A stretch of 64,000 nucleotides of DNA, from positions 186,001-250,000 of the forward strand of contig CANXME010002011.1 in NCBI GenBank assembly GCA_948144175.1. The letters are read 5' to 3'. The translations under genes and the position numbers were made by a program. The DNA is from Closterium sp. NIES-65 (lineage: Eukaryota; Streptophyta; Zygnematophyceae; Desmidiales; Closteriaceae). Below are positions 1,385 through 42,447 of this stretch, piece after piece (within the stretch, counting starts at the first letter, position 1; every line of letters begins with the position of its first letter). The notes below the pieces were generated by a model. The model worked only from the letters and a program-made list of their open reading frames with translations, made no database searches and was not told the DNA's origin.

Positions 1385-4300
1385 TCACTGCGCAGGTGGT
1401 GCTGGCACTGTGGTGTTGGGATCTGAACTGGACAGAGGAGAAGTTGCTGTTGCCACGGCTGGGATTTGCTTATCTGCTGCCACCGCTGGTGGCGGTGGAG
1501 ATGCTATGGGAGGGGCTGACGGTGTGGATGGTGGGGTAGGGGTTGCTGACGGGGATGGCTGGGGAGGTCTTGGAGGAGGGTTTGGAGGAGGGTTTGGACG
1601 AGAGGATATTGTAGGGGATGTTGTTGGAGGGGCGAAGTAGACCGAGTCTGGGATGAGCAGCGAGTCCAGTACATGCACCTGGTGGAGTGGGGTGCGGTGC
1701 GGTGGGGTGGGGTGAGGTGGGGTGGAATGGAGCAGGGTGAGGTGGGGGGTTTGGTGGGTTGGGATCAGGTGGGGCGGGGTGGAGTGGGGTGGGGTGCAGT
1801 AGAGGGTGGGACTGGCCGGATGTGCATGGAATACGGCAGCAAGGACGAGTGGGGAGTGCTAGACCTGCATGCACTCACGTGTGCCGGATATCCCTCAAAC
1901 CCATATCCCACACCTGCATGCTCTCGTCCGTGTATGTGTTGGGCATAATGATGGTGGCACGGTAAGGCACTAGACCTGCATGCTCTCACGTGTGTCCGAG
2001 AGCTCTTATCCCATAGCCCCCTCCCCCATAGCCCTCACCTGCATGCTCTCACGTGTGTCCGAGAGCTCTCGTCCCATAAACCCCCACCTCATAACCCCCA
2101 TCAGTAGGCTCTCGTCCGTATATGCGTTGGGCATGGTGATGGTGGCACGGGAGATCCCTCTGGTTGCACTCGCAGCAGCACCATGAAAGTGAGTCCTTGA
2201 CACACGTGCTTTCGTGTGTCTCCCATACCACAACCCTCACCTGCATGCTCTCGTCCGTGTATGCGTTGGGCATGGTGATGGTGGCACGGGAAGGCCCTTG
2301 GCTCGGCCGCAGCACCACGACAGCAGGTCCTTCTCAAGTGTGCACTCATGCGTATCTCATCCCATAGCCCTCACCTGCATGCTCTCGTCCGTGTACGCGT
2401 TGGGCATGGTGATGGTGGCACGGGAAGGCCCCTGGCTCGGCCGCAGCACCACGTTGAAAAGGAAGCTCGCTGCGTCCTTCACCAGTGGCTCGTGCTGATC
2501 CGTCATGTACTGCAGGAGAGGAGAGGGGGAGGGGTAGGGACAAGGAAAAAGAAGAGGGAGTGAGAGAGAATGAGGCCGCAGCACTACGTTAAAAGAGAAA
2601 GCTCGCTGCGTCCTTCACCAGTGGCTCGTTCGTGCTGATCCGTTTGGTACTGAAGCGGAAGGAGGGCGGAAGGAGGGACAGTGGAAGGGGGGGAGAATGA
2701 AATGGGGAAGAACAGTAGGCGAGAGGGCAGGAAGCCGTAGCACTACGTTGAAAGAGGAAGCTCGCTGCATCCTTCACCAGGGGCTCGTTCGTGCTGATCC
2801 GTTTGGTACTGCAACGGAAGGAGAGGGGGAGAAAGTGGGGAGGGTAGGTCGGGGAGGGCGATGAAGAGCAAACGAGAGAGCATGAAGCCGCAGCACCACA
2901 GCCCCATCCCCCTCCCTCCCATCCCCCTCCCACCCCCCTGAACCCCACTCACCATGGTTCCAGTGGCGGCTTGAGTCAACTCCGTGTAAGTGACCTGCCT
3001 GCCCCGCACCACATGGAAATTGACCACTGCCGTGGCGATGGCCGGGTCGTTGATGAGGGGGGAGTCGTCGGGCAGGTCCTTGATGGTGTCGGGATCCGGT
3101 ACGAAGAATGTGACTTTCTCTGTTGAGTTGAGTGCCTTCCCCATGAGAGTGAGGAGACCTGGATCCAGGAGGGGATGAGAGGGGGCAGTGGGAAGGGCGA
3201 GTCGTCGGGCAGGTCCTTGATGGTGTCGTGGTCGGGCACGAAGAAGGTGACTTTCTCCGTTGAGTTGAGTGCCTTGCCCATGAGGGTCAGGAGACCTGGG
3301 GGGTGAGAGGGGAGGGGATGCGAGGGGAGGGGATGCGAGGGGACAATGATGAGCGGCGAATCGTCGGGCAGGTCCTTTATGGTGTCGGGGTCGGGTACAA
3401 AGAAGGTGACTTTCTCCGTGGAATTGAGGGCCTTACCCATGAGGGTCAGGAGACCTGAAAGAGGGGTTGGGTTGTGGGATAGGATAAGAGTAATAATCGG
3501 GGACGAGGTGGGAACGTCCTTGATGATGTCGGGGTTTGGCACCTCCCTTATAGAAGGTAAGCGTAATGAGGTTATTTTTGAGACGTCTCAAAGATAACCT
3601 CATTACACGTCCTTGATGATGTCGGGGTTTGGCACCTCCCTTATAGAAGGTGACTTTCTCTGTCGAGTTGAGTGCCTTGCCCAAGAAAATGAGCAGGCCC
3701 GCGGGAGGATGGCAAATTGGGAGGGGACTACGGAGGGGGCCATGCCACCATACCATGAACTTTAGGTAGGGAGGGAATGGGGGGTGATGGTTGACAGGGG
3801 AGATGGGAAACACTTTACAATATTTAAGGAGCGCCTTACCTCAGCTGATCGTGAACATCATAAGCTGCGGGTCGTTTAGGTACGCCTAAAGCATCGTCAG
3901 CACCTCCCGTAGGTCAGGACCTCCCGAATGGAACAGTTCAAGCGCCTTACGGAATCCTGAAAGTCCTGAAGAGCTTCATGAAGCCCAAAGAAAAAAGCCT
4001 TACCTCCGTTGATCGCGAACATCATGAACTGCGGGTCGTCGAAGTACGGCTGTAGCATCTTCAGCACCTTCTGCGCGTTCCCCAGGTCCACTCCGCCGCT
4101 CCCCGTGGGCGGAGACGGCGGGGGCGGAGGCGGAGACTTCTGCGCTGAAGAAGGCTTGCGCCGCCTCGGGGGAGAAGCAGGCGGGGGGGACTTCGGGGGA
4201 GACGGTTTAGGGGGAGACCGCTTAGACGGAGACCGTTTAGCGGGGGGCGGTTGCTTGGGGGATTTTTGCTTAGGCGGGGAGGAGGAATGCGGCGGGGGGG

Positions 4301-5126
4301 GACGCTTCTTGGGGAGGATCGGCGAGCGCTTCTTCGGAGGGGAAGTTCCCCGCTTCGGCGGGGAAACTCCGCGCTTAGGCGGGGACGTATTAGATGCGCT
4401 TGCAGGACTTTTCGTGGGGACCTTCGGCGAATGATTAGCCGTTTTCTTCGGCGGCGAGGGCGTCTTTCTCTTAGGTGGCGGGGACGCTCTGATCATAACG
4501 CTAATTAATCTGCTGCCAAGCTTAGGACTCTTCTTGGTCGAACCGGGCCGCGGAACCGCCAGCGGCGGCAGCGGCGGCGACGGACGCGCTCGTTTCAGCA
4601 GCTCGGTGTAGAGCAGCGATATGGTCTCTCTGGATCGCGCGGCGCTCGCCGCCGTAGGTAACGGCGGCTCTGGCGGCGGGTTTTCCGCGAAGTTCTCCTC
4701 TACGTTCCGGGGCTTGAAGAAATTCGGCGCGTTTGACGGCGATTTCGACGCCGAGTTTACGGGATTCCCGCTGCTACTCATGAAACTGCTACGCTTCTCG
4801 GCGCTAGTATGGATGCCTACTAGTTTAGAATCCGGTGACGCTGCTAATACGCGCGGATATCCTCTCCCGTTGAGGGCGCCAATCGCAACGGATCGAGCGC
4901 TCATGGCAGCGGCATCTGCGCCAGCTACGGCGGCGGTAGTTGCGGCGGCAGCTGCGGCGGTGATTGAGCTTCCGCTGGGGGACGGAGCTGACGCGGGAAG
5001 GGCGGAGAGAACGAGTAAAAATAACACGAAAGCTAGAGAAAACGCTACCATGGACAATGGCGATGCTGATGGCGCTGGCGACTCGAAACAATTCCGCAGT
5101 TGATCCCTCCGCCGACAATCCGCCAT
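1385..5126 (-). CDS. Fasciclin-like (FAS1) proline-rich cell-surface protein, 4 exons
   Basis: Exons on the minus strand are 5126-4004, 3158-2953, 2509-2375 and 1678-1385. Donors GTAAGG, GTGAGT and GTGAGG pair with AG acceptors, and phases 1, 0, 0 close to 585 codons plus stop. A hydrophobic segment around residues 27-47 looks like a signal peptide, so the in-frame Met26 (position 5051) is a likely alternative start. Residues of about 190-340 form a Pro/Lys/Ser-rich extensin-like region with repeated SPPK units. A single FAS1 domain then runs across the exon 1/2 junction through KVTFFVPDPDTIKDLPDDSP and the conserved H in NFHVV to VHVLDSLLIP, followed by a Pro-rich tail. Family knowledge: FAS1 proteins are secreted or wall/membrane-associated adhesion proteins. 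I see no clear GPI-anchor signal at the C-terminus. All three introns hold duplicated exon edges. Confidence 0.85.
1868..2374 (-). repeat. Intron 3 copies of the 3' edge of fasciclin exon 3
   Basis: The end of exon 3 (coding ATITMPNAYTDESMQ plus its GTGAGG donor, 2369-2460) recurs in degraded form at about 2235-2320, 2101-2186 and 1914-1965. Shorter fragments lie near 1868, 1976 and 2039. The best copy keeps the donor (CCTCAC on the plus strand). From 1680 to 1805 the intron is a GGGGT-rich run, which is an expanded pyrimidine tract before the exon 4 acceptor when read on the minus strand. Confidence 0.8.
2588..2815 (-). repeat. Intron 2 copies of the 5' edge of fasciclin exon 3
   Basis: Two copies (about 2588-2655 and 2750-2815) of the first ~60 bases of exon 3 sit upstream of it, each near its own acceptor. 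Both carry a 4-base insertion in the CACGAGCC segment that shifts the frame. Only the copy at 2375-2509 can be the true exon. Confidence 0.8.
3196..3925 (-). repeat. Intron 1 copies of the exon 2 5' edge and exon 1 3' edge
   Basis: Four copies of the start of exon 2 (coding GLLTLMGKALNSTEKVTFF) lie at about 3196-3302, 3352-3455, 3500-3556 (partial) and 3607-3706. The first two retain a CAG/GTCTCCTG acceptor. In the last, the acceptor AG has become GG and the reading frame is broken. One copy of the exon 1 3' edge, with a GTAAGG donor, lies at about 3836-3925. None of the copies has an intact far-side splice site. Confidence 0.82.
3563..3606. repeat. 44-bp near-perfect palindrome
   Basis: GTAATGAGGTTAT and its complement ATAACCTCATTAC bracket a centre of GAGACGTCTC. 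The two 22-base arms differ at one position. It sits exactly between two partial copies of the exon 2 edge that share GATGTCGGGGTTTGGCACC, so it may mark a fold-back event during the duplication. Confidence 0.9.
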
Positions 5127-6144: not shown

Positions 6145-6487
6145 TGCAAGGAAAATCCCTTTTCCTTACTTCGCATCCCTGCTCAACGCGTACATCACTG
6201 TAGCACCACATTCAGCACCGTTACCACTCGCAATCCTCGCATCGACAATCCGCCCGCCACCTTCGCACGTCGCACCCCGACCTCACGGCTTGGTGGGTAA
6301 CCCGCGCTACGGGCCTCGGCTTCGACACTTTTTCCCAACCTCACTCCCAGGCTCGTCGCGCGACAACCACAGTCCATTACCGTTACCACTGTAGTTTCGC
6401 TATATATTCTTCGCTCATGCCTTCGCTCATTGTACGGTTGCTTCGATAGTGCAATTCTCGTTCATTCACTAAATTGCACTCGTAACA
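6145..6487 (+). repeat. 5' LTR of gypsy A
   Basis: Starts TGCAAGG (canonical TGTAAGG in its partner) and ends CGTAACA. It contains a TATA-like CTATATATT near 6398, the likely promoter of the element. Its length matches the 3' LTR exactly. Confidence 0.92.
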
Positions 6488-8522: not shown

Positions 8523-8527
8523 CGCTG

Positions 8528-9790: not shown

Positions 9791-9831
9791 GCTGCGCGTC
9801 GCCTGCTTGCCTGCCTGCCTCCCTTTTTGGC

Positions 9832-18462: not shown

Positions 18463-18478
18463 GGGGGGGGGGGGGTAG

Positions 18479-18826: not shown

Positions 18827-19807
18827 CAAACATCTCGTGAATCAGTCGACAAGGGGTTATTACGGTTTGGCCGAACCTCCAGCGACCGATGAACCAATCG
18901 ATGTGGCATGGGTAGCATCCAGCGTGTCAGGGATCATCAATTAGCACCCACGAACCTGGTCGTGAGCTCGACCATTGGCTGGCTCCTCTTGTCTTGGGGT
19001 CCATACACTTTAGCAAAAGGCCGAAACAGTTCTCTTGCCACCCATGGTTGCTCCTCCTGTCTCTTGTGGGTGCTATTATTTTTGGCCAGCTCGATGATGG
19101 GCCGTTGGATAAGCGATTCACCCATCCAACGATGAGGATGGAGCAATATACAAGATTTCCCGCCGAGATTTTCGAGCCCACAAGCCAACCCGTACAAACT
19201 GTTCCACGAATGATCATCCTCGATAGTGTGAACAGATCGCCCTTCATTTCCCAAGAGATATTCTCTGAACTTGAGAACTCTTGAATGAAAAGCTTTGGAG
19301 ACTGGAGATTGGAGAGTAATTGAAGCAGCACAAGCAGCTCCAGGAGCAGCACGCTTGTAAGGCTAGCTAACCTAGGGAGTGACGAGTGACGAAGCTTACA
19401 TTACAGCAACAGCACACACCTTCTCTTCATTCGAAGAGTTGACACGCGGGAACTAAACTTAGTGTTAACAACAAAGCTCAAATCATTGGCGTCGTAGACT
19501 GGTTTGATGAGCTCCACGTACGATCTCCATTGCCGCGGCTGTAGCAAAAACGTTCACCGATGAAGCAGGCGTTTCATCAGCCTCCGTTTCACCCTGATTC
19601 GAATCCGTTTTCGTCAGCACGCCAAGGATATTGGGGAGGAATGGACAATGCAGCCTATCAGTCAAGCTACACGGTAATCTTCATTAGCCAACCAGGAATA
19701 GAAATGTCTTTCTCGCTAATATGAAGTTATCGCGAGTGCAAAACACCTGGTTTAGCTCACACTGAATCTGCCACCCACCGGATCTCTCTTGACAGCGAAG
19801 GCTTGCA
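18827..19807. other. Upstream region of the E2F gene
   Basis: No convincing coding frame; the minus frames at 18927-19352 show no family features. The region lies between the gypsy A target duplication and the first E2F exon and presumably holds the E2F promoter, including the E2F-type site at 19156. Confidence 0.5.
19156..19163 (+). promoter_or_regulatory. Candidate E2F binding site
   Basis: TTTCCCGC matches the E2F consensus TTTSSCGC and lies about 650 bases before the E2F start codon. E2F genes are known to regulate themselves in plants and animals. Its use here is inference; an 8-base match can occur by chance. Confidence 0.4.
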
Positions 19808-25800: not shown

Positions 25801-28800
25801 TCTCTCTCTCTCAAACGGTCCTTTGTATTAATTCAGCAGGGGTACAAACATGCGGTGCTATCCATGATAACCTCCATCCCTTAAGCCCCAAAACTTACCA
25901 CTCTTCACCCCCCCCTGAGTGACCCTCTAGCCCTCCAGCGTGTGGAGGATGTCCCCCAGGTGCAGCGGCCAGGGGTCCGCTGCCATCTGGGGGTGCGCTG
26001 CCTCGATCCCAGCCCTGGCCTTGGTGTGCAGGGCATTCGCATGGGAGCGCTGGAGGGCCACTGATCAGCGCTGGCTGAAGTGGCAGGCCATCTTCTCGGC
26101 CGATTTCGCCAGGGGGTTGGCCCTGAACCGGTTCCTAGCTGCTGCTGTGGCCAGCAGCTTCAGGAACGCAGTCGTGGTGGGCGCGTTTGCCCCGTAGGTC
26201 TCGACGGCTAGGGCGCAGAACACCACGTGTTCCGTGTGTCGGTAGTACTCCCTCTCCTTCCGCCTCTGTGCCTCTCTAGCAGCCCAGCCTGGGGGTTTGC
26301 GGGCTGTGGGGTCCCGGTTCTGCAGCACAGGGTCGGTGATAGTCGTGTCTGTGATCCAAGTCTCTCCACTGTCCGGGTCGCGTACAATCACATCGGCTTT
26401 CTTCGGGTCATCCGGCGGTGAGTACATGGCGTTCTCTAGGTATACCACCAGCTCTGCCTCCCTTGCCATTTTAGCCACGGCAAAAGCTAGCTGGTTGTGT
26501 GTGCGTATCCTGTCGGGGCTGCAGCGGAGTAGGTGGTTGGGTAGGCTGCAGTCGGCTACGAGTTCTCCACACTCGCACACAGTGGGTACATTCTGGCGGA
26601 TGCCCATGCGGAAGGCCAGGGCTGCTCGAAATTGTCCTGGTGAGAAGCAAAGGTCCGGGGTCAAAGGTAGGGCCTGCAGCCATGCTCCCGCTCCCTCCCC
26701 TCTCAGGCTGATGAGGCGGAGTGAGTGACCCATCTCGAGGGCTGACAGGATGGTGCGTGACTCCTCTGTCAAGGCGTCGGCCTTTGCCGCGTGCACCTCG
26801 TGAGAGAGGGCGCGTTGCAGCTGGTCTTAGGACGGGGTTTGCTGCTCCTCCCGGAGGTATTGTAGCGCCAGCGGTGGCAGGCGCCCCTCCATGTCCTAGA
26901 TGGTTACCGAGTGCGCTGCGGACGGCTGCAGGGTGTTGTTGTTGGCTCCCAGTGCCGCGGTTGCTGGTAGGTAAAGGGAGCGGAGCAGTCGTAGCGCCTC
27001 CGTCGTTGATGCCAGGTAGGCCGGTGCTGCTTCTGTTGTGGGGTCTGTAAGTCCCAGTCCGCCCAGGGCGACTGGAAGGGTTGCTTGTCGGAGCAAGAAG
27101 TTGAACTCGACTTCTCGGCGTGGCGGTTGAATGCTGACGGAATTGAAACTGAACTGATTGATTAAGAAAGAAGGCACTAGGCCTTAAGTACAAACGAGGT
27201 TGTGATGGGCAAGGCTAGGGAAAGGATGGGATGGGAATCCTAGCAAATCTCCAATTGGTGAGTTGGCAGATTTGCAGGATTACGAAGGAATCCCAACCAG
27301 ATAGGGCTGGGATCACAAACTACCCCAAACCCACAAATAACCTACGCGATATAGAATATAGTACACAAAGTGTTGACAGCCTAATTCTAACACACCCCCT
27401 AGGCTGCAACACATCAGCCACAAGGAGGCCCAACACCCATGGCCGAGAGGAGGCGGTAATGATCCTCGCGAACAAGCGACTTGGTAAACAAGTCAGCAAG
27501 GTTGCAGTCGGAGGCAATGTGTTCAGCCTTCAGCTGCTCGCGCTGCACCAGCTCCCGAAGAAAGTAGTGACGGACTTCAATGTGCTTGGTGCGGCCATGG
27601 AAAACGGGGTCTTTGGTGAGATGAATGGTGCTCTCGTTGTCACACCAAAGCGTTGGGGTTGGTTGGGGATACCCCAGTTCTGTCAGCAGGAAGGAGAGCC
27701 AACGAGCCTCCTGTGCAGCCATGGTCCCGGCATACAGCTCTGCCTCACAGGTCGACAGTGAGACGGAGGACGACCGAGTGGAGCGCCAACTTACAACCCC
27801 AGTGCCAAGGGTAAAGCAATACCCTTGGGACGAGCGCCGATCACTCTGGTCATCAGCATAGGATGAGTCACTGTACCCCTCAAGGCGAACCGAGGAAGTG
27901 CCGCCAAGTGCGAGCACATAATCCTGTGTGCCTTTGAGATAGCGAAGAACCCGCTTGGCGGCAGACCAGTGGTGGCGAGTGAAGCGACCAGGTGCAACGT
28001 AGCGGGACAGTACACTGACTGGATAGGCTAAGTCTGGTCGAGTGCACATCATCGCGTACATGAGGGATCCCACAAGCTCGGGGTAAGGCTCGTCACAGGG
28101 CTCAGGTGAGGGAACGGAGGGTGCAGTGAGTTGGTGTTGCAGAGAGAGTGGGGTGGGCATTGATGCTGCTTCCTGCATCTGGAACCTCGTCAGAACGTTG
28201 TTGATGTAAAACTTCTGCGAAAGGGTGATGGTGCGGGCTGTGCGATCACGTGTGATTTCCATTCCCAAATAGTTCGTCAGCTTCCCAAGGTCCTTCATGG
28301 CCAGCTTCTCACCAAGTGCGGTTTTGACTGCTGCCAGCTGTGTCTGATCCTTGGTGACAAGGATCATGCCATCGACATAAACGAGGATGAAGAACCGGGA
28401 GGGTGTTGCTCGGATGAAGAGGTTGGGGTCAGAGGTGGATGGGTGAAAGTCGAGGGACCCTAAGGTGCTCTTTAGCTTGTTGTGCCATTCCCGGGGAGCT
28501 TGCTTGAGGCTATACACTGGCCGATTCAGCTTCCATACAGTGCCTGGTGGAAAAGGAGTTGGAAATCCTTCGGGCCGCTCCATATAGATTTCCTCTCGAA
28601 GGATCCCTTGCAGGAACGCAGAAGACACATCCATGCAGTCAACCTCCATGTCATCTCGAGCAGCGACATCGAGTAGAGGGCGCAGTGTGGGAGGTTTGGC
28701 GGTGGGAGAGAATGTCTCAAAGAAGTCCAGTCCACGCTTTTGGGTAAATCCCTTGGCACAGTACCGGGCTTTGAAGACAGGAAATTCGTCTGGAAGTTGT

Positions 28801-31800
28801 TTCACCCGAAAGACCAATTTTCCCTTAACAATGTTAACGCCGGAGGGAGGAAAGACGCCTGTGAAAGTTCCTGTGTGAATGAAGGCCTCACATTCTGCGA
28901 CAATGGCCCCCATCCACTGAGCGGCGTGAGGACCAGAGACTGCTTCAGCATAGGTGAGAGGTGTGGGGATGGAAAGGTTGTCGGAGAAATTGAGGGTGGG
29001 AGAGTCTGCGATGTCTGGAAAGAGGGAGCATAGTGCGTGGATGGCTGAGTCGATATCAATCAACTCCTCATGTCTGTCTTCAAGGAGGGATGACATGAGA
29101 GAATAATCACCCCCGACAGGAGGAGAATTGAGAGAGACGCGAACGGAAAGGGAGAACGGTTGTGGAGGTGTGCGAGAGCGGGTGCGAGAAGCGATGGGTG
29201 AGGGAGGCGGGGCCGGAGTAGGCGTAGCGGAAGGGGAGGTGGGGGTGGGAGGGAGAGTGGAGACAGGATCGGGATCAGGGGTGGGAGCAGGAGGAGGAGG
29301 AGCTGGGTGACGGTGCTGGTAGGTTTTGAGAGGAACGGGCTCGGTAGGAGGAGATGCGAGAGGAGATGGAGGATGGGTAGCGGAGGAGGGAGGGAGCGAG
29401 GGAGACTGTGTGGTACTGGAGGGGGAAGCGGGTGATGGGGGATCAGAAATGGTGGAGGGAGCGGGAAGAGGAGGAGATGGAGTGTCGGGAAGAGGGAGAC
29501 TGTCAAAGTCTGCCCAAGTAAGAGAGGGAGGCGGAGGAGAGGGGGAAGCCTTGGAGGAGGGGTAGAATGGGTGGGACTCATCAAAGTAAACGTCTCGGCT
29601 GCGATAGAGCTTGTTGGTGGAAGGATGGAGGAAGAGATAGTCTGGCGAGTCTAAGTTGTGCCCGAGGTATACGCACGTGATCGTTTTGGGAGCAAGTTTG
29701 CCGCCAGCCGCATGACGGGCTTGGGAGTTGAGGAGGACATAAGAAGTGCACCCCCATACACGAAGAGGGCGGACGGATGGCTTTTGACCCGTCCATAGCT
29801 CAGCGGGGATGGTGTGGGTGTGATGAGGATGGGGATGGAGATTGTGGAGGGCGGCAGCATGAAGCATGGCGTACCCCCAGAGAGAGGGAGGGGCGGAGGC
29901 GTGCGTGAGGAGGGAGCGAGCAATCTGCACCAATGTACGGTTCCGGCTTTCGGCAATACCGTTCTGTTGGGGACTGTCTGGGAGAGTGAAGGTCTGACGG
30001 ATACCCTCAGTGGAGCAGTAAGCTTTGAGAGTGTTGTTGCGGAATTCACCGCCGCCGTAAGAGTGAAGGACCTTGATGGTGGTTTTGAAGTGTTTATGAG
30101 CCTGCTTCGCCCATTCAATGATTACGCCTTGGGCTTCGGATTTGGAGGAGAGAAGGTGGACAGACACATAGCGGGAGTAGTCATCAATAATGACAAGGAA
30201 GTAAAAGTGTCCACCGCGAGAGCGAACAGGAGCTGGGCCCAAAAGGTCCATGTGCACGCGATCGAGAGGTGCAGCGGAGATGGACTCAATGGGGGGATGG
30301 GGCTGCTCACGAAGCTTGCTCTGTACACAGTCAAGGCAAGGCGGCCCGAGGGTGGAGGTAGGAGAGGGAAGTGAGGTTGGAAGCCCGTGGAGGAGTTGTT
30401 TTGTGGCAAGGTCTGAAAGCGCGCGAAAGTTGATGTGGCCAAGGCGGTGATGAAAGAGCATGGTTTTGTCGGAAAGGAGGCGGCAGTGACAGGTGGAGGA
30501 GTCAAGGGAAGGTAACGGGAGGTTTGTGAGGGAGCACGTTTGAATGGGAGGTACTACGAGCGTGTATAGGTTGTTGGAATTGAGAGTGAAGCGGGCTAGA
30601 TGAATGCCGGTTTTGGCGACAAAGAGGTCAGAGTAGTCGACATCATTGGGAAAGATGGTAATGACTCCTGCTTGTTGGATTTCACTTTGTGCCAGGAGGT
30701 TGTGGCAGAGGGTGGGGGCACAGATGCCAGTGACTGTGCCCGATGGAAATGCTGGACAAGGAAGTGTGGAGGACCCATGGCATTGGATGGAGAAGCTAGA
30801 GTCGGCTCCGAAGAGTGGGATGGGAGCCTGGTAAGGAACGAACGCGGTTTGGTCTTTGAGCACTGTGTGGGTGGCATCACTGTCTAGTATGAACTCGATC
30901 CCTTGTGTGTTTGAAACCCCGATGTACTGTGACCCCTTCGCATTAATAAGACCAGCACCTGAGAACAACAGGCTGAGGCGAATATCAGATGGGGTGCTAT
31001 CAACTGAGGGACTAGGCACCTCCACTGCCTCGACATAGTTCACGCGACGGGGTGGGGACCAGTTGGGAGGGCGCTTGTTGGTGGAGACACCATGGACGTC
31101 GTACCACTCATCATCTCGCTTCTTGAAACAAGTTGCCTCAGGGTGGTTGGTGCCTCCGCATTTCTGCCCCGCACGTGGGCCTTTCCTAATGATGTAGGGG
31201 CATGGGAGAAAGGAGTTGCGCCTTGGTCCTTGTTGGGAGCGGAATGGGATTCCAGGGGTGTAGCGCACAGCATTGACGGATGCTTGGGCTGCAAGGTCCT
31301 TTTCGGCGGAAAGGAGAGCTGATGCGACTTTTTCGAAGGTGAGTTCCTTGGTGGGAAGTTGCTTGAGCATGGAGCTGGTGCCATTGTAGGTCGGGGTCAG
31401 TCCTACAAGTAGGCCAGCTTCAGGTGCTTGCTCGGGGAAAATGATCCCAATGTCCTTGAGTTCCTCATGGATGTTGCGGATTTCAGAGATGTAATCTGCC
31501 ATGCCAGGGCATTCCTCAAGGCGGACCTGGAACATTCGAGGGATGAGGATGGCAATACCCACTGCTGTCTTGTCATGAAAACGGTCCTGGAGGTACTTCC
31601 AAATCGCATGAGCGGAATGAAAGGTGCGGTAGGATTTGACGAGCTCAACCAGAGTGGTGGTGATGAAAACCCTAATAACTGCTGCATCTGCCTGCTCCCA
31701 CACACTGAAATCAGTCTCGTACTTGGTGGTCTGAGCGTCAAAAGCGGCCTTCTCTGCGGCAGTGGCGCCTTCGCCAAGGGGATCGGGAGGGAGAGGCATA

Positions 31801-34800
31801 TTTCCCTTGCCGCGGTTGAGGAGGATGTCTTTAAGGCAAATCCCTTTCAGTTCCGTGCTAAGGAGGTGCTTCTCCACCCCATAGCACCATTCTCCAAAGT
31901 TGGTGCTCGTGCCGTTGGGAGCGAGGTTGAGAATGATGAGGTTTCCGACGAGGGTAGAAGTTGAAGTCGCCATTCGCGCGGAGCGCAGCGCTAAAGTCAA
32001 CGATACGAAGCGGAGCGAAGTTCGGTGACTAAAGCGGCTGCGCGCAGCGCGGCAATTTTGAAAATTGATGAAGTCTGAAATGCGGAAAGGTGCGATTTTG
32101 CCAAATAAGATTGCGATTGCTGTTCTGCTTCTCTGCTTCGCCGATGACCCCTTTTCTGCTGCGCCAATGACCTGTTCCGCTGCGCCGCTGACTTGTGCTG
32201 CTGCGCCGCTGAACCTGCTCTGCTGCGCCGCTGAACCTGCTCTGCTGCGCCGTTGAACCTGCTCTGCTGCGCCGCTGAACCTGCTCTGCTGCGCCGCTGA
32301 ACCTGCTCTGCTGCGCCGCTGAACCTGCTCTGCTGCGCCGCTGAACCTGCTCTGCTGCACCGATGAACCTGTTCCGCTGCGCCGCTGAACCTGCTCTGCT
32401 GCGCCGCTGAACTTGCTTTGCTGCGCCGCTGAACCTGCTCTGCTGCGCCGTTGAACCTGCTCTGCTGCGCCGATGAACCTGTTCCGCTGCGCCGCTGAAC
32501 CTGCTCTACTGCGCCGCTGAACCTGCTCTGCTGCGCCGCTGAACCTGCTCTGCTGCACCGATGAAAACCTGCTGGAAGTTTCGAATGTGAGAAAATTGCC
32601 ACGGAAATTTGTAATTTCAGAGCTTACGATGAAGGAAATCGACGGAGAAATGTGCCGCCGTGGAAATCGAAAATGCACGTAGACGGAGCGGGAAAGCGCC
32701 TTCGACCAGTGCGACGATGTGAAGACGAAAAAATGCTAAGCGAAGAAGGCGTGAACCAAGAACGCCATAGCCGAGAGGAAGAGAATGATCGCGACGCCAA
32801 GGATCGGATTCCCCGTGAGCGGAATGTGCTAGCTCTGATATCATGACGGAATTGAAACTGAACTGATTGATTAAGAAAGAAGGCACTAGGCCTTAAGTAC
32901 AAATGAGGTTGGGATGGGCAAGGCTAGGGAAAGGATGGGATGGGAATCCTAGCAAATCTCCAATTGGTGAGTTGGCAGAGTTGCACGATTACGAGGGAAT
33001 CCCAACCAGATAGGGTTGGGATCACAAACTACACCCAACCCACAAATAATCTACGCGATATAGAATATAGTACACAAAGTGTTGACAGCCTAATTCTAAC
33101 AGTTGTTGGCCCCCAGTGCCGCGGTTGCTGGTAGGTAAAGGGAGCGGAGCAGTCGTAGCGCCTCCGTCGTTGATGCCAGGTAGGCCGGTGCTGCTTCTGT
33201 TGTGGGGTCTGTAAGTCCCAGCCCGCCCAGGGCGACTGGAAGGGTTGCTTGTCGGAGCAAGAAGTTGAACTCGACTTCTCGGCGTGGCGGTCGAATGCTG
33301 GCGGCGGTCAAGGCCGTGTGCGGTAGTTCGGAGCACCATGTGTGCCATTCCGAGAGGGGTAAGACGTCTGCTGGGGTAGTGCGTAGCAGGTAGCCGATTC
33401 TGCGGCTGATGCAACGGGACAGTAGCAGGAGGGCATGTTGTGGGTGGATGGACGCCAGAGAACCCAAGGGGGCTGCCGCGTCTGTTAGGGTACTGCGGAC
33501 AAAGGCAGAGCAGGAGCTCTGCGACCCCACAGGACTTCCCAACACCCGTACCCCCTCGTGGGTGTGGGGGAGGCCTTCGGGGAGCACGACACCTCCAAGC
33601 GGCATGGAGGACCACGCCGACGATTTCATAAAGTTGCAGGTGAGGCCATCCTGTGCTAGTAGCGGTGTGAGCTCCCTTAGCGCGTCTAGCGTCGCCGTCG
33701 CGGGTCCAATCATGGTTATGTCGTCTGCGTACGCGAGGACGGTGACTTCCGGGTGCTCCGCTGCCACGTGCCTGAGGTGCTGCTGGATAGACGCCGCGAA
33801 TAGCAGGGGTCCGAGGGGATCGCCCTGTCTGACTCCTCTTCCGCTGGTGAGTGCTGTGGAAGTAAAGCATGGATCTAGCAGCAACGGTGATGGTGATGCG
33901 TAGAAAGAGCGTGTGAAGGGGATGAGGGGGGCTAGCGGGGAGCCGATAAGTGCGTTGAAGAACGCGCTCCTCTCGACTGAGTTGAACGCGTTCTCAATGT
34001 CGAGTTGGAGGACTAGGCTGGAGGGCTGTACGGTGGTGAGGTCTCTGACTGCATGGATGACGAACTCAGCACCTCCCGGGACTGCCACGCCAAATTGTTG
34101 AGGTAGGAAAAATTTTCGCGTTTCTCCTTGCAGGTCTGAGAGTGCCACTTTCGCCGCCAGCCTAAGCAATGTTTCTCCGATCGCGATTGGGCGTACCCCC
34201 CTCCCTGGTTTGGCGAAGGCTATAAGGCGGGACGGGGCGAGTAGGGCTGCAACCTCGTTGGAAAGGTTTGTCGAGAGAAGGTGTTTAACGGCGGAGTGGA
34301 GGTGCCCTAGTACCTCGATGTTACTTAGCGCTGGATCGCGGTAGTGTTCGAAGGTTGACCCCGATGGGCCAGCCCCAATCCCCCTGGGGCATTCCCCGAG
34401 GACGTCCGAAAAGCTTTCCAGGGTGGTTGAAAATTGTGTGGGTGTCGTGTAGGAGTGGACCCAGTCGGGCAGGTCATTTTGGGGTTGGGGGTGTTTCTAT
34501 TCCAGCTGCTGCAGTGTCGCGAATGTCGCTGGTGCTGATGGCGAGGGTTGAAGGGCCGCTAACGCCTTTCGCAGGTTACCCCTTTTCACCAATCCCTCTG
34601 CACGTGAGCAGATTCCCAGCGGGTCACGTTGGTGCTGAGGTGGTTCAGCCAGGTGCATTGACCCCAAGTATTCAGTGTACAGCTGGGTCCAGTGGCCACA
34701 TCGGAATACATGCATCTGTGCCCGCAGTAGTTTCCACCTAGAGCTGGATCTCCGGCTAAGTCTTAGCGTGAGACGTGGCAGGAACATGAGGACCCGCCAC

Positions 34801-34825
34801 GCTCCCGCGCAATTAGGCAGCTTTG

Positions 34826-34912
<87 letters not shown>

Positions 34913-35069
34913 AAATGGTCTGTTGTATTAATTCAGCAGGGGTACATACATGCAGTTCTATCCATGATAACCTCAATCCCATAAGCCCATCAACTCACCC
35001 CTCTTCCCCTCCCCTCCCCCCTGAGTGACCCTCTAGCCCTCCAGCGTGTGGAGGATGTCCCCCTGGAGC

Positions 35070-35146
<77 letters not shown>

Positions 35147-35833
35147 GTGCCTGTTCTGTCCCTGTGCATCCCCAGCCGGTTTGAGGAGAAGTTTGACTGT
35201 GGCACCGACCAAGCCACTCCTGCTGTTGCGCCTGCTACTGGGAATGCCACCGGGGGAACCGGGAGTGCTGCAACGGAAACAAGACCAGCAGCAGCAGCAG
35301 CAGCAACGACTGCTGGTGAAGTGCTAGCAGCAGCAGCGCCAGCAGAAGAAGGAGGCAGAGGGGGAGTAGAGCAGGAGGGGGCAGCTATGGTATCAGGGGT
35401 GGGAATAGACTCAAGTCCTGGGACCTGGGGATGTGGAGAGGGGAGGGGGAGTGGAGGTGGAGGAGCTATGGCTATGGGGGATGGGGAGGGGGACATGTGG
35501 ATGACAATGCCAGGAATGCCAGGGGACGCGGCTGGACCAATGAGAGTCGTTCCCGCCGAGCCAGTGGTGAGTGCGGCAATACCGTATCAAAATGTTATCT
35601 GCACCACTTACTGGTTTTGCTTTAGGTGATGATTGTTCTTGCTTGTTTATTCGTTCCCTCTATCTGTACGCACATTGGTTGATTGTTCTATATGGTAGCT
35701 TGCACGTGTAACGTAAAGTACTTGCTTTTATTATGTTTCATGTGTCCCCGATCCTCCCATGATGCAGGATTATTGGCTTTTGTCCGACAATCACTTGGGC
35801 TTGACTGATATTTGGCGGACTGATCCTACGTGA
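19808..35833 (+). CDS. E2F: Plant-type E2F transcription factor, 11 exons
   Basis: Exons: 19808-20048, 20633-21097, 21576-21661, 22107-22195, 22749-22809, 23406-23458, 24084-24183, 24664-24729, 25357-25451, 35176-35566, 35768-35833. GT and AG ends and phases agree throughout, giving 570 codons plus stop. Residues ~81-225 are Gln/His-rich. The winged-helix DNA-binding domain (~227-293) includes [13 protein letters not shown] and [19 protein letters not shown] leucine-rich coiled coil (~315-345) would pair with DP, followed by the marked box ([32 protein letters not shown]). The C-terminal [16 protein letters not shown] is the retinoblastoma-binding motif. Function from the family: G1/S control of DNA-replication genes as an E2F-DP dimer restrained by Rb. 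Exon 9's acceptor is the least certain; intron 9 is 9.7 kb of nested transposons. Confidence 0.9.
20094..20420 (+). repeat. Intron 1 copies of the E2F exon 1 3' edge
   Basis: The end of exon 1 and its donor (GCAGCATTC... GACAGGACCCCAG/GTGAATCC) recur about four times with a spacing of about 90 bases. Donor positions read GTAGAT, GCGAGT, GTGAAT and GTGCAT, so the splice site decays from copy to copy. Confidence 0.78.
21296..21560 (+). repeat. 15-bp minisatellite in E2F intron 2
   Basis: CCACCCTGCTGTTG(C) units, some with CTGCTG or ATG variants, repeat about 17 times and end just before the exon 3 acceptor at 21574-21575. Both strands are open for long stretches because of the repeat; I do not treat these frames as coding. 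Confidence 0.9.
21723..22017 (+). repeat. Intron 3 copies of E2F exon 3 and of the exon 4 5' edge
   Basis: 21728-21812 is a diverged copy of nearly all of exon 3 ([24 protein letters not shown]), followed by a copy of the start of intron 3. Its donor GTGCGT has become CTGCGT. 21956-22017 copies the start of exon 4 with a good acceptor (GTCGGCAG/GTGCAGAAGCG) but diverges after EGIGLIK. Confidence 0.85.
22226..22520 (+). repeat. Intron 4 donor-site minisatellite and exon 4 3' edge copy
   Basis: The intron 4 donor GTGAGTGCA is repeated about ten more times through 22226-22513, separated by G-rich spacers (GTGAGTGCATGGGG units of 21-26 bases). 22262-22319 also copies the end of exon 4 ([13 protein letters not shown]) with its donor intact. 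Confidence 0.85.
23790..24080 (+). repeat. Pyrimidine-tract minisatellite at the end of E2F intron 6
   Basis: Units of about 17 bases, CTTCTGCCACCTCCCCC, repeat about 16 times and run straight into the acceptor of exon 7 (CTTCTGCTACCTCCACAG). The acceptor itself is a variant of the repeat unit. Confidence 0.9.
24510..24640 (+). repeat. CCCTCCCTTTTCC repeat in E2F intron 7
   Basis: Pyrimidine-only units CCCCCCTCCCTTTTCCATCC repeat about six times upstream of the exon 8 acceptor at 24661-24663. Confidence 0.85.
24745..25300 (+). repeat. Intron 8 copies of the exon 8 3' edge and exon 9 5' edge
   Basis: After the donor of exon 8 (CTGACGAG/GTGAGT) the same boundary recurs as GCTGACGTGGTGAGT and GCTGACGAGGTGAGT within the next 80 bases. 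The exon 9 start recurs twice, at about 25070-25112 (CTGCAG/CAACCAGTACCAGATC) and 25212-25290, the latter including the upstream CACACAG/GCAGGCAGGG acceptor. Confidence 0.8.
26065..27134 (-). pseudogene. C-terminal part of LINE polyprotein (zinc finger and endonuclease-like)
   Basis: The minus frame has a [19 protein letters not shown] zinc-finger-like cluster (~26510-26580). Downstream, KADVIVRD...[13 protein letters not shown] resembles the PD-(D/E)XK restriction-like endonuclease placed after RT in R2/NeSL-like LINEs. The class assignment is inference. Two stops (~26895 and ~26830) interrupt it between the RT thumb region and the zinc finger. 26938-27134 duplicates 33102-33298. Confidence 0.75.
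27135..27392 (-). repeat. 3' LTR of copia F
   Basis: 258 bp, TGACGGAATTG...CTAATTCTAACA on the plus strand. Confidence 0.92.
27414..31973 (-). CDS. Copia F gag-pol polyprotein, intact frame with altered active sites
   Basis: I chose the start [10 protein letters not shown] at 31973 because gag homology (UBN2-like, [13 protein letters not shown]) begins there; the same frame stays open upstream to 32678 through a 22-bp repeat. 1519 codons cover gag, a CX-rich gag end ([17 protein letters not shown]), protease, integrase (HHRLGH...CLDC zinc site), RT and RNase H up to the stop at 27414. Three active sites are changed. Protease reads LDSDATH, where the family has DSGA or DTGA. Integrase reads HSYGGGEF, where the second catalytic Asp is expected. 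RT reads YVDG instead of YVDD. The frame is therefore intact while all three enzymes look disabled. Confidence 0.9.
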   Translation of the reverse strand: MATSTSTLVGNLIILNLAPNGTSTNFGEWCYGVEKHLLSTELKGICLKDILLNRGKGNMPLPPDPLGEGATAAEKAAFDAQTTKYETDFSVWEQADAAVIRVFITTTLVELVKSYRTFHSAHAIWKYLQDRFHDKTAVGIAILIPRMFQVRLEECPGMADYISEIRNIHEELKDIGIIFPEQAPEAGLLVGLTPTYNGTSSMLKQLPTKELTFEKVASALLSAEKDLAAQASVNAVRYTPGIPFRSQQGPRRNSFLPCPYIIRKGPRAGQKCGGTNHPEATCFKKRDDEWYDVHGVSTNKRPPNWSPPRRVNYVEAVEVPSPSVDSTPSDIRLSLLFSGAGLINAKGSQYIGVSNTQGIEFILDSDATHTVLKDQTAFVPYQAPIPLFGADSSFSIQCHGSSTLPCPAFPSGTVTGICAPTLCHNLLAQSEIQQAGVITIFPNDVDYSDLFVAKTGIHLARFTLNSNNLYTLVVPPIQTCSLTNLPLPSLDSSTCHCRLLSDKTMLFHHRLGHINFRALSDLATKQLLHGLPTSLPSPTSTLGPPCLDCVQSKLREQPHPPIESISAAPLDRVHMDLLGPAPVRSRGGHFYFLVIIDDYSRYVSVHLLSSKSEAQGVIIEWAKQAHKHFKTTIKVLHSYGGGEFRNNTLKAYCSTEGIRQTFTLPDSPQQNGIAESRNRTLVQIARSLLTHASAPPSLWGYAMLHAAALHNLHPHPHHTHTIPAELWTGQKPSVRPLRVWGCTSYVLLNSQARHAAGGKLAPKTITCVYLGHNLDSPDYLFLHPSTNKLYRSRDVYFDESHPFYPSSKASPSPPPPSLTWADFDSLPLPDTPSPPLPAPSTISDPPSPASPSSTTQSPSLPPSSATHPPSPLASPPTEPVPLKTYQHRHPAPPPPAPTPDPDPVSTLPPTPTSPSATPTPAPPPSPIASRTRSRTPPQPFSLSVRVSLNSPPVGGDYSLMSSLLEDRHEELIDIDSAIHALCSLFPDIADSPTLNFSDNLSIPTPLTYAEAVSGPHAAQWMGAIVAECEAFIHTGTFTGVFPPSGVNIVKGKLVFRVKQLPDEFPVFKARYCAKGFTQKRGLDFFETFSPTAKPPTLRPLLDVAARDDMEVDCMDVSSAFLQGILREEIYMERPEGFPTPFPPGTVWKLNRPVYSLKQAPREWHNKLKSTLGSLDFHPSTSDPNLFIRATPSRFFILVYVDGMILVTKDQTQLAAVKTALGEKLAMKDLGKLTNYLGMEITRDRTARTITLSQKFYINNVLTRFQMQEAASMPTPLSLQHQLTAPSVPSPEPCDEPYPELVGSLMYAMMCTRPDLAYPVSVLSRYVAPGRFTRHHWSAAKRVLRYLKGTQDYVLALGGTSSVRLEGYSDSSYADDQSDRRSSQGYCFTLGTGVVSWRSTRSSSVSLSTCEAELYAGTMAAQEARWLSFLLTELGYPQPTPTLWCDNESTIHLTKDPVFHGRTKHIEVRHYFLRELVQREQLKAEHIASDCNLADLFTKSLVREDHYRLLSAMGVGPPCG
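32150..32575 (-). repeat. 22-bp tandem repeat in the copia F leader
   Basis: CTGCTCTGCTGCGCCGCTGAAC units repeat about 19 times with few variants. Because 22 is not a multiple of 3, the open frame cycles through all three phases, giving a 22-residue protein period ([17 protein letters not shown]...). I regard it as untranslated leader, or at most an N-terminal extension. Confidence 0.88.
32832..32843 (-). promoter_or_regulatory. Primer-binding site of copia F
   Basis: TGATATCAGAGC on the minus strand directly abuts the 5' LTR, one base off the usual TGGTATCAGAGC initiator-tRNA site. Confidence 0.8.
32844..33101 (-). repeat. 5' LTR of copia F
   Basis: 258 bp, same length as the 3' LTR. It is followed on the plus strand by GTTGTTGGCCCCC, the start of the duplicated LINE segment. 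Confidence 0.92.
33102..34787 (-). pseudogene. LINE reverse transcriptase (N-terminal part truncated)
   Basis: The minus frame 34169-33102 contains [27 protein letters not shown] and [11 protein letters not shown], the A, B and C blocks of a non-LTR reverse transcriptase. Upstream frames to 34787 ([14 protein letters not shown]) match the region that precedes RT in such elements but are in another frame, so the reading is interrupted. The copy is 5'-truncated at about 34815. Confidence 0.82.
34826..35063 (-). mobile_element. Second, 3'-end-only LINE copy with long (GA)n tail
   Basis: 34829-34909 is an uninterrupted CT run of about 80 bases. 34910-35063 is a diverged copy of the 3' end of the main LINE (compare 25813-25957: TTGTATTAATTCAGCAGGGG and GTGTGGAGGATGTCCCC). 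It is a heavily 5'-truncated copy, and the larger LINE appears to have inserted into its tail. Confidence 0.75.
35073..35144 (+). repeat. (CT)n microsatellite before E2F exon 10
   Basis: About 72 bases of CT, 31 bases before the exon 10 acceptor at 35174-35175. It is probably the original pyrimidine tract of intron 9 and the target of the LINE insertions. Confidence 0.9.
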
Positions 35834-38663: not shown

Positions 38664-41600
38664 ATGGACCCTCCAGCTTCGTCTCAAGGCTTAGCGATCA
38701 GCTCAAAGCCTCAAGAGTCTCGCAGAGTGTCGTTCTCCGAACGCCAACAGCAGCGACGTCGCGGTTCCCGAAGATCCCTCGCCGCTTCTTCGAATGGCGA
38801 TGCATCCGGTTCACCAACGGCTCAAAATGGAAATGGTCCGAATGGAGGAGCTTTCGGCTTCCGTGGACATCGCATGAAGCCGGATAAAGTTACCTTTTCG
38901 GAGCGTCAGCGGTTGAGAAAAGCAGGCGAGCTCGAAGAGGAAGACGCGAAGCCGATCTTTGGAAATCGAATGAAATCCAAGGTGACGTTTTCAGAGCGGC
39001 AACGACAAAAGCTGAGACGAAAAAAGACGCTGGACGAGATGGAAACCCTAGAGTGCGTGGATGGAGAATTCGGATTCAGCTGGTCGGAATACGCGTCGGA
39101 TTCGTCGTCCGAGGCGCCGACGCCGGCAGGTGGTTTGGAGAAGGTCGAGTTTGGCGAAGAGTTGCGAGAGGAAACTGGCGAGGCTGGCGAAGGGACGGTG
39201 GTGGGAACGGCGTGGAAGGAGAATCGTGGCTTCCGAGTGCAGATTCGCCTCGGGGGAGCGGCGAAGAAGCTTGTCAGCGGAGCCATTGCTGGAGGAGTGT
39301 CACGCACAGGTGCGTGTGGCTTCTTCCTTTCCTTTTTGAATATATGTGTTTTCGGTCTTTGAAGCGCCGTATGCGGCGGCACGTTCCTCGTTTGCCGCTA
39401 TTAACAACGCATCGCTCGGAAGTGGTTGATTCAAAGTGCCACATTGACTGCCTGAACGTTTGTCTGGCACTTGGAAAAATATAAAACAAACAAACAATCA
39501 AACAAACGAAACGAAACAGATTAAATCAAATCAACTGGTCATGGAAATGCGCAATGTGGCAGTGGTGGCGCCGCTGGAGACGATCCGCACGCATCTGATG
39601 GTGGGGAGCTCAGGCAACTGATTGTAACATTCAATGTAATACCTGTATTGTTATACACTTGCGCGATGTGGCAGTGGTGGCGCCGTTGGAGACGATTCGC
39701 ACGCATCTGATGGTGGGGAGCTCGGGGCACCGCACGATCGTGGGCGTGTTCCGCTGGATCATGCAGAAGGAGGGGTGGCGCGGGCTGTTCCGCGGCAACG
39801 CCATCAACGTCATCCGCGTGGCTCCCGGCAAGGCCGTGGAGGTGAGAGTCGAGTGAAACGGCGGTGGAGGTGAAAGGTGCACATGTGAGGAGATCAATGG
39901 GCTCTTACCTGAAAGGGTTCAGTTAACCATTGTGGGCTTGCTCACGCTCATAGCTGCTGCATTGACCGCATGCATTGTGACGCTGAGTGATACGTGCCCG
40001 TTCACCCATGCTACATTTCTAGTCCGACCACAACCCATTTGCTAAATAAGAAAGAGAAATAGAGCGTTAAAGGCACGAGACAAGGAAGCACCAACCTGTG
40101 CGATCCCTTTCTGTGCTCTAGCCTCCCCTTCTCACCCTTGCGCCCATACGCGCATTTTTTAGTCGACTCAAAAGTCAACTCGGTCCCTTTCTGTGCTCCA
40201 GCGTCCCCTTCTCACCCTTGCGCCCATACGCGCATTCCTCCTTACCCCTTCTCCCCGCCACCAGCTATTCACGTACGACACGGTCAAGAAGCTGCTCACC
40301 ATGCGCTCATTCCGCCTGCCTTCTTCTTCTTCCTCTGCCCGTCTCCTCCCCCACTGACCTCCACCACCAGCTATTCACGTACGACACGGTCAAGAAGCTG
40401 CTCACCCCGCCGGACGGTGGCAAGCCCATCATTCCCATCCCGCCCTCCTCCATCGCCGGATCGGCTGCTGGCGTGGCCGCCTGCTGCCTCATGTACCCTC
40501 TCGAGCTCGTCAAGACGCGGCTGACCATTCAGGTGAGCTTCTTAGTGTTGATTATGCTGTACAGTGCACTGGTGGCATCTGTGCTGGCGTGGCCGCCTGC
40601 TGCCTCATGTACCCACTCGAGCTCGTGAAGACGCGGCTGACCATCCAGGTGAGAATATCAGTGCTGGTTGGGTTGACGAGTCCACTGCCGGGGTGGCTGC
40701 CAGCGTCACAGCCTGCTGTACCATGTACCCCTTGTAGCTTATCAGTTTTGAGTTGTCGAGCCAGTTGCCAGGTCTGGTCGGCTGCTGACGTGGCAGCGTG
40801 CTGCCTCAGGTACCCCCTCGAGCCCGTCACACCAAGACGCGGCTCCCCATCCAGGTGAGCTTTGTCAGTGTTGAGCCGTTCAGTGCATTGAGGTGTGATT
40901 CGTAACTGGGTCTGGGACATGTGGATAAGCATTGGGGTGTGCGTTGTCACACTTACCAGACTCACTCACAGGCAATGGCATCGTGTTTCGTTTTCATGTC
41001 CTAACCAAACCGTGTCACAGGCTGGCTCCTTCATACTCCAGTTCTCAGTCCAACAGTCTCGAGCACCAAAACGGGGCCAACCCATGCAGATATACCTGTT
41101 TCCCTTTCCTTTTATCTCTCTCCGCTCCGCCACACCACCCCACACCTCCCCCCGCCGACCCCTCCGCCTGCCCCCCTCCTCGCCCCCCTCCCCCTTTCTC
41201 TCCGAGCAGCCGGGTGAGTACCGCTCCATTCTGCATGCATTCTACCGAATCATCACAGAGGAGGGTACTCTCGAGCTCCACCGGCGATTGGGACCCATCC
41301 TCATAGGCACCGTGCTTCGTGCCCTCAACGTGTCCCGCCCATGCCGCTGTGCCACTCCTCTGTGCCTTCTGTCTCTCTCTTCCCCTCCCCCCTCCACCCA
41401 ACCCCCCCACCACCCCACTTCCCTTTCTGTCCATACAGCCGGGCGAGTACCGTTCCATCCTGCATGCATTCTACCGAATCATCACAGAGGAGGGCGCTCA
41501 CGAGCTATACAGGGGACTGGGCCCCAGCCTGATAGGCATTGTGCCGTATGCCGGCTCCAACTACTTTGCATACGACACGCTGCGCACGCTCTACAAGAGG

Positions 41601-42447
41601 CTTGCAAAGAAGGATAAGATCGAGCCGCTGGCGACGCTCATCATTGGGTCGCTTGCTGGTGCTGCTGCTGCCTCAGCCACGTTCCCCTTGGAAGTCGCCC
41701 GCAAACAGGTGTGTGGGGGGGGGGGGGGGGGGAGGGGGGAGTTGGGTGGGGGGAAAGAGGTAGGGAGGTGTGCTCGCTGGGTGGTTTGGGGTGTGGGTGA
41801 TGCTGTTGGGTGTGGTTGATTCTACGGAATGCTCATGCGCTCTACCGGGGACTGGGGCCCGGCCTGATAGGCATCGTGCCATATGCTGGCTCCCTCTACC
41901 TTCAAAGTTGTTCGGAAACCGGTGGAGGGCAGGAGGAGGGGGGAGGAGGAAGGAGGAGGTGGGGGGGATGGGGGTGAGGAGGTGTGCTCGCTGGGCGGCA
42001 GTGTGTTTTTTTTAGCCTCTTGGTGCTGCTTCTGGATTTGCTGGTGCTGCCAGTGCTGCAAGTTCTGCTACTGGTGCCGCCTAAATCAGGAGGTCATACA
42101 TCAGGTGCTTTAAGCTGGTAATGGTTTAGTCTGTGGTTAAAATTCAGGCTTCACCTGTATCAACCTCCTTCGTTCTGTCCATCATGTTAACCTCCTTCCC
42201 CTTCCCATTGGTACACTTGCAGATGCAAGTTGGTGCGCTCAAGGGCCGTGTTGTGTACAAGGGGACATTGGACTGCATTCAGAGGATCGTTCAGGAGCAA
42301 GGAATCCAAGGGCTCTACAGGGGACTCGTGCCGTCGTGCGTCAAGCTAATGCCTGCTGCCGGAATCTCGTTCATGTGCTATGAAGCTCTGAAGCATGTTT
42401 TTGTTGAAGACGATAAGGTTACGGTAGCAAAACCAGGAGGTGCTTAA
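38664..42447 (+). CDS. Brittle1-type mitochondrial carrier family protein (adenine nucleotide transporter), 5 exons
   Basis: Exons: 38664-39309, 39675-39841, 40371-40532, 41439-41708, 42223-42447, with phases 1, 0, 0, 0; 489 codons plus stop. The C-terminal ~290 residues are a three-repeat carrier with the signatures PLETIRTHL, PLELVKTRL and PLEVARKQM, and the membrane segments expected of the family. SGAIAGGVSRT/VVAPLETIRTHLMVGSSGH is typical of plant BT1 proteins, which move adenylates (or ADP-glucose in cereals) across plastid or mitochondrial envelopes. The ~200-residue N-terminus is hydrophilic and holds three VSFSERQ/VTFSERQ repeats with basic residues, unlike a plain transit peptide. 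Substrate and organelle cannot be read from sequence alone. Confidence 0.9.
39553..39620 (+). repeat. Intron 1 copy of the carrier exon 2 5' edge
   Basis: GATGTGGCAG/TGGTGGCGCCG at the true acceptor recurs here as AATGTGGCAG/TGGTGGCGCCG, followed by about 55 bases of exon 2 (LETIRTHLMVGSSG). It ends within the exon with no donor. Confidence 0.88.
40111..40300 (+). repeat. Intron 2 duplications next to carrier exon 3
   Basis: A 45-base intronic segment (CCCTTTCTGTGCTC...ATACGCGCATT) occurs at about 40104-40160 and 40188-40236. At 40262-40300 the exon 3 acceptor and first 38 bases (CACCAG/CTATTCACGTACGACACG) are duplicated 110 bases ahead of the real ones. Confidence 0.88.
40553..40858 (+). 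repeat. Intron 3 copies of the carrier exon 3 3' edge
   Basis: Three decaying copies (about 40580-40655, 40688-40740 and 40783-40858) of AACCLMYPLELVKTRLTIQ with its donor follow the true exon end at 40532. The first and third retain CATCCAG/GTGAG. The second has a stop in the PLELV segment. Confidence 0.88.
41204..41310 (+). repeat. Intron 3 copy of the carrier exon 4 5' edge
   Basis: GAGCAG/CCGGGTGAGTACCG with about 95 further bases copies the start of exon 4 (PGEYRSILHAFYRIITEEG) 225 bases ahead of the true acceptor. The later part is diverged (LHRRLGPILIGT). Confidence 0.88.
41835..41905 (+). repeat. Intron 4 copy of an internal part of carrier exon 4
   Basis: About 65 bases coding LYRGLGPGLIGIVPYAGS, matching 41505-41566 of exon 4, lie in intron 4. 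Unlike the others this copy does not include a splice site. Confidence 0.85.

Follow-up and report, generated by a model that had tools for sequence, protein, structure and literature searches.

The window analysed here, a stretch of 64,000 nucleotides (C1713:186001-250000), carries a fasciclin-domain gene, an E2F gene and a mitochondrial-carrier-family gene, whose introns hold arrays of copies of the adjoining exon edges. It is well supported that these arrays are tandem duplications straddling splice junctions, and many of the copies seem, from the pattern of their substitutions, to have diverged under protein-coding constraint. Intron growth and its raw material are rarely readable; here they are still legible in several introns of each gene, with copies of many different ages, in a host that is probably an alga of a lineage next to land plants. 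The excess of silent changes in sequence expected to decay freely is the part hardest to explain. Close examination covered 204 kb of contig C1713, 70 kb of a duplicate of the locus on contig C1815 and 32.7 kb from four other contigs, while the genome searched comprised 874,075,685 bases in 2400 contigs. Coordinates are window-based, negative values lying in the flank before position 1. In the models of the fasciclin, E2F and carrier genes (4, 12 and 5 exons, respectively), all frames are open and all introns are GT-AG.

Each exon edge was represented by 70 nt (the whole exon if shorter) and compared with the adjacent intron, with dinucleotide shuffles as controls, 100 made from the intron and 100 from the edge; the 9.7-kb intron 10 of the E2F gene was reduced to 1.5 kb at either end. 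Across the three genes, 14 of the 36 edges outscored all shuffles of both partners. The match on the 3' side of carrier exon 4 was discounted, being CTG-rich, weak (score 28, shuffle maximum 25) and 37 nt off the junction, which leaves 13 of 36 edges with accepted junction copies. Such copies are held by 10 of the 18 introns (fasciclin 3/3, carrier 3/4, E2F 4/11). The initial annotation had reported exon-edge copies in these introns, and both the copies, judged against shuffled controls, and the coordinates given for them were confirmed; its wording that most introns contain them suits the fasciclin and carrier genes and overstates the case for the E2F gene.

When the edges were lengthened to at most 200 nt, 23 copies with a score of at least 30 were found, 19 of which approach the junction to 6 nt or less (those at 40681, 41844, 3510 and 25079 do not). 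All 19 stop within the exon and retain one junction, none comprising a whole exon flanked by its two splice sites, as had been claimed for the missing opposite site. The copies had also been said to carry a splice site of their own, which holds for most: among 30 copies from the three genes and the flanks, the donor GT is retained in 13 of 18 donor-side copies and the acceptor AG in 11 of 12 acceptor-side copies, and it is lost in the rest. The copies lie head to tail beside their source, which is the arrangement of a tandem genomic duplication. Several of them stay alignable, in register, past the junction into the intron, and tandem-repeat periods of 94, 116 and 134 were found, both of which point to duplication across the junction; we regard this duplication step as highly probable. 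Outside transposons, the window holds 36 local duplicate pairs, 25 of which include exon sequence, while nine of the other 11 lie within the arrays and two elsewhere in introns.

Further tests were based on 21 window junction copies, obtained from the 23 by removing the four that miss the junction and adding by hand two E2F exon 2 copies (20233 and 20327). Use of the copy's splice site breaks the reading frame in 20 of the 21, the exception being the E2F exon 10 copy at 25213. The single consistent exon path proposed earlier for each gene is upheld by these 20 and not by the exon 10 copy, which leaves the frame intact, and the same count leaves the idea of decoy sites feeding alternative splicing without support. 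Judged by frame, the spliced edge would be the one attached to the exon body, and use of the copies in place appears unlikely because nearly all of their sites break it. The sequence shows that the arrays arose as segments of about 90-230 bp straddling a splice junction were duplicated in tandem, repeatedly. Only the edge still attached to the exon body would yield a correct messenger RNA; the other copy, with its own donor or acceptor, would join the intron, which would grow.

Compared with their exons, all 23 copies together carry 99 synonymous (S) and 69 nonsynonymous (N) changes, with 38, 30 and 100 changes at codon positions 1, 2 and 3, and the set of 21 carries S86 N63 (S share 0.577). 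In 400 simulations of a neutral copy beside an exon changing synonymously only, the S share had a mean of 0.401 (standard deviation 0.038, maximum 0.517) and 0/400 reached the observed value; the binomial P for the excess is 3e-6, for copies that were not chosen for S excess. Neutral decay of pseudo-exons is rejected for the set, though some single copies fit it. The initial annotation makes no mention of this largely synonymous divergence. The 30 copies including the flanks give S163 N87 (dS 0.33, dN 0.056), a ratio biased upward because the flank genes were found by the codon-like signature itself, and the main tests are those on the window genes alone; the intron parts of these copies differ at 176/785 positions. 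The most extreme single copies are fasciclin exon 2 c2 (S15 N0), E2F exon 5 (S8 N1) and a copy of a histidine-kinase exon in the flank (S14 N2).

Changes private to one member were counted in nine groups with at least two copies, giving S33 N5 on the used edge, S14 N8 on the first copy and S24 N15 on the second; the five window groups give S10 N3, S4 N3 and S15 N8, and since all these counts are unrooted, some of the changes assigned to the used edge may in fact fall on the stem of the copies. Private changes are rich in S, yet the copy branches carry N, a mixture suggesting that constraint acted on the copies during one part of their time apart and was absent in the rest. In arrays where synonymous changes lie on both branches, as they do for many edges and copies, the two had presumably diverged into distinct functional versions before they were juxtaposed. 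Decay with distance, as described in the initial annotation, is weakly seen: dN is 0.048 for the nearest copies and 0.066 for those farther away, with dN/dS about equal (0.16 and 0.17).

Such a juxtaposition would probably come about through a break within an exon, with repair that took a diverged version of that gene as its template, ran on beyond the splice site into the intron and was closed by end joining. The edge made in this way would then be taken into use, while the old edge, cut short where the break occurred, would stay in the intron and begin to decay. Another strain or a hybrid partner would have to supply the diverged template. PMC10407611 documents a hybrid origin for one strain of the Closterium peracerosum-strigosum-littorale complex, and within that strain recombination among sequences that differ in origin; this makes an outside template, brought in by strain crossing, possible. 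That a diverged version replaced the used edge is the account we prefer; it is unproven, and we put it forward as a tentative proposal. To duplication and replacement together, as the whole explanation, we assign a probability of roughly 0.45.

Several observations weigh against duplication with replacement. The genome was searched for diverged versions of two arrays, carrier exon 3 and fasciclin exon 2, a kind of search that is no proof of rarity. Carrier exon 3 matched only itself and C1815 (four matches), with no diverged donor, and only 4 of the 106 fasciclin exon 2 matches cover exon copies, all at its own locus or on C1815, the other 102 lying in or beside a pyrimidine-rich spacer. Diverged paralogues still present in the genome were therefore rejected as the source of the copies for these two arrays, and the template would have to come from outside the genome, since no such version was found here for either. 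At the protein level the closest carrier paralogues share 55-65% identity, and C1713 and C1815 differ at 37/14,565 aligned bases of the gene regions, with no sign of very diverse alleles. The S excess is weaker between copy and copy (S64 N59), and plain neutral decay fits several copies, such as fasciclin exon 1 (S2 N10) and three copies of E2F exon 2 (S3 N14). Of 17 hand-listed families of local duplications (pairs 24722/24797 and 1974/2037 omitted), 13 touch an exon edge, with 4.2 expected by random placement (0/20000), which speaks for duplication across junctions, but this enrichment is partly a matter of detection and inflated, because in a pair that involves an exon only the copy fades, and duplicates in the intron interior fade faster.

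Ordinary local tandem duplication followed by neutral decay would leave similar arrays, with short duplications arising at any place, among which the junction-crossing ones survive since splicing ignores the extra copy and are noticed since selection holds the exon side. The tandem geometry agrees with it, as do an intron-only duplication of like kind at 40101/40181, the neutral S:N ratios of several copies, the lost donors and the gaps in some copies, and the S64 N59 between copies. It misfits the synonymous excess of the 21 window copies, in both the binomial test and the simulations, and the private changes of the copies (S38 N23 in the nine groups, S19 N11 in the five window groups), where a neutral branch would carry about three N per S, and we consider it rather unlikely. 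Coding selection could instead act on the copies in place, if they serve on rare occasions as alternative edges, or if they are templates for recombination into the exon so frequent that breaking a copy carries a cost. The coding-like divergence on the copy branches, the mostly retained splice sites and the similar synonymous branch lengths of edge and copy in fasciclin exon 2 c2 and the histidine kinase speak for such selection; against it stand the loss of frame that splicing at 20 of the 21 window copies would cause, and the higher N load of the copies relative to the used edge. Recent changes are also equally frequent in copies and introns (5/1669 and 17/7516, a comparison of little power), and by a rough reckoning, recombination strong enough to sustain such selection would erase the synonymous differences as well. 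We judge selection in place to be unlikely, and slightly more doubtful still the version in which introns store spare working exon edges, kept under coding selection by recombinational exchange with the used edge. Whether hybrid templates, recombination with the exon or hidden use turns out to hold, the answer informs gene repair or splicing.

The locus recurs on C1815, where the pieces covering the three genes are 97.9-99.7% identical and the window from 6.8 to 17.4 kb, which is largely retrotransposon, aligns only in fragments. Differences between the two contigs fall in introns (17/7516), exons (13/4977), copies (5/1669) and outside these (2/403); the exon changes are spread over the codon positions as 4, 5 and 4, so the comparison is too young to speak on selection. 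None of the copies is absent from C1815 in the gene-region alignments. C1815 has one extra 63-bp unit in fasciclin intron 3, together with 182 and 70 extra bases in two E2F intron minisatellites, and the arrays are still changing, as the differing number of 63-bp units indicates. An accident of assembly was rejected, since the same arrays stand on C1815. An assembly or scaffolding error that pasted in exon ends from other gene copies is conceivable where near-identical contig pairs of carrier-family genes can confuse assemblers; it is very improbable, because the two contigs share the arrays while differing by point changes and in the alignment at 6.8-17.4 kb, because source sequence elsewhere was not found for the carrier exon 3 and fasciclin exon 2 arrays, and because an exon start is repeated in both members of a pair of carrier paralogues (C84/C1617).

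In that pair, a protein search places a second match (414-455) about 80 nt ahead of the last matched exon (query 414-482), and the pair probably has exon-edge copies too. A scan of the 204 kb of C1713 for codon-like local duplicates passed 9 of 266 pairs, two in the window and seven in the flanks. A globin gene in the flank (identified by Pfam) has copies at three exon edges, and the histidine-kinase exon (HisKA by Pfam) has two downstream copies; both models are limited to the exons concerned. A further coding array lies at 95.6-95.9 kb on the same strand, 7 kb past the histidine-kinase exon, and our guess is that it belongs to that gene. At the same threshold, after length and complexity filters, no codon-like local pairs were found in 32.7 kb of four other contigs. 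These results support a common process across several genes, short of a genome-wide count. The growth of introns through duplications that span exon-intron boundaries, suggested earlier as a genome-wide process, is thus supported beyond the three genes by the globin and histidine-kinase cases, and its extension to the genome is an extrapolation.

Within-gene duplications that bring splice sites along and alter introns were reportedly described by Gao and Lynch in 2009. The present copies likewise carried splice sites along within genes; they differ in that they enlarge existing introns, affect several introns per gene, reaching three or four copies, and show a synonymous excess. In tandemly duplicated alternative exons, exon sequence is repeated beside its source. 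Unlike such mutually exclusive exons, the copies described here are truncated, keep one junction and, as reported above for the window, nearly always break the frame. Tandem duplication is established as a source of introns, supplying splice sites for new ones, and in a potato case an intron-exon stretch was duplicated with its 3' splice site (PMC3443670, PMC4974935). The supply of splice sites by duplication is common to both situations; unlike intron gain under the AGGT model, no new intron appears to be formed here; the copies lie within introns whose exons join in frame at the inferred sites, and the host intron stays where it is and lengthens. As with introners (PMC9860276), a process shapes introns in many genes, whereas the fasciclin exon 2 array, the only array searched in this respect, matches its own locus and C1815 and forms no dispersed family. 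No earlier report of such arrays in these algae was found among the papers listed in literature searches.

Table. Gene models and exon-edge copies in the window (S and N, synonymous and nonsynonymous changes relative to the exon).
Feature	Position	Strand	Details
Fasciclin-domain gene	1385..5126	-	exons 5126-4004, 3158-2953, 2509-2375, 1678-1385; Pfam PF02469, E 6.5e-7
Fasciclin exon 1 3' edge copy	3840..3905	-	donor GTAAGG retained; S2 N10, appears dead
Fasciclin exon 2 5' edge copy c1	3192..3295	-	AG retained; S9 N2
Fasciclin exon 2 5' edge copy c2	3347..3454	-	AG retained; S15 N0
Fasciclin exon 2 5' edge copy c3, decayed	3606..3698	-	S7 N8, 7 gap positions, AG lost
Fasciclin exon 3 5' edge copy c1	2574..2649	-	S3 N3
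Fasciclin exon 3 5' edge copy c2	2734..2808	-	S4 N3
Fasciclin exon 3 3' edge copy c1	2241..2319	-	donor GTGAGG retained; S2 N0
Fasciclin exon 3 3' edge, more copies	1914..2188	-	2188-2108 and 1968-1914, 63-bp unit between, its number different in C1815
E2F gene, 12 exons	19560..35833	+	exons 19560-19673, 19877-20048, 20633-21097, 21576-21661, 22107-22195, 22749-22809, 23406-23458, 24084-24183, 24664-24729, 25357-25451, 35176-35566, 35768-35833; Pfam PF02319 (E2F_TDP), PF16421 (E2F_CC-MB)
E2F exon 2 3' edge, tandem copies	20049..20416	+	period about 94; three copies S3 N14, appear dead
E2F exon 4 3' edge copy	21728..21800	+	donor lost; S2 N3
E2F exon 5 5' edge copy	21950..22009	+	AG retained; S8 N1
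E2F exon 5 3' edge copy	22270..22310	+	GTGAGT retained; S1 N2
E2F exon 10 5' edge copy	25213..25275	+	AG retained; S5 N2; shorter piece 25079-25106
Mitochondrial-carrier-family gene, 5 exons	38664..42447	+	exons 38664-39309, 39675-39841, 40371-40532, 41439-41708, 42223-42447; Pfam PF00153 (Mito_carr), three stretches
Carrier exon 2 5' edge copy	39563..39614	+	AG retained; S3 N0
Carrier exon 3 5' edge copy	40265..40300	+	identical 36/36, AG retained
Carrier exon 3 3' edge, tandem copies	40582..40854	+	40582-40648 (S3 N0) and 40778-40854 (S5 N4) with donor; 40681-40730 without junction
Carrier exon 4 5' edge copy	41210..41315	+	AG retained; S10 N6
Carrier exon 4 interior piece in intron 4	41844..41902	+	without splice junction

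An identical 45-bp piece of the decayed fasciclin exon 2 copy stands at 3514-3558 and 3607-3651, flanking a short palindrome, GAGACGTCTC; motifs resembling this palindrome adjoin the flank copies and are perhaps the footprint of a small mobile element. Directly after the E2F exon 5 copy lies a minisatellite of a donor-like unit, GTGAGTGCATGGGG (22311-22515), which is the one longer by 182 bases in C1815. A 15-bp run, GGGAAGGAGTGGTTT, has grown into a minisatellite within a copy of globin exon 4 (-16750 to -16570), and a flank pair at -45486 to -45141 passes the codon-like scan with S19 N18. The four other contigs resemble repeats by eye. Carrier-family loci occur as contig pairs with nearly equal match rows (C1713/C1815, C84/C1617, C117/C1829, C376/C1855 and C202/C106), as if much of the genome had recently doubled or two haplotypes had been assembled. 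Retrotransposon-like long frames, with integrase- and reverse-transcriptase-like parts by eye, are found at 9772-15180, 27414-32735, 43699-49071 and 57050-59659, the second being housed in E2F intron 10. Just upstream of the window, on the minus strand, lies a second fasciclin-like gene (by eye, -5184 to -4247), and a coding stretch repeated near -1588/-1471 may belong to it or to a neighbour.

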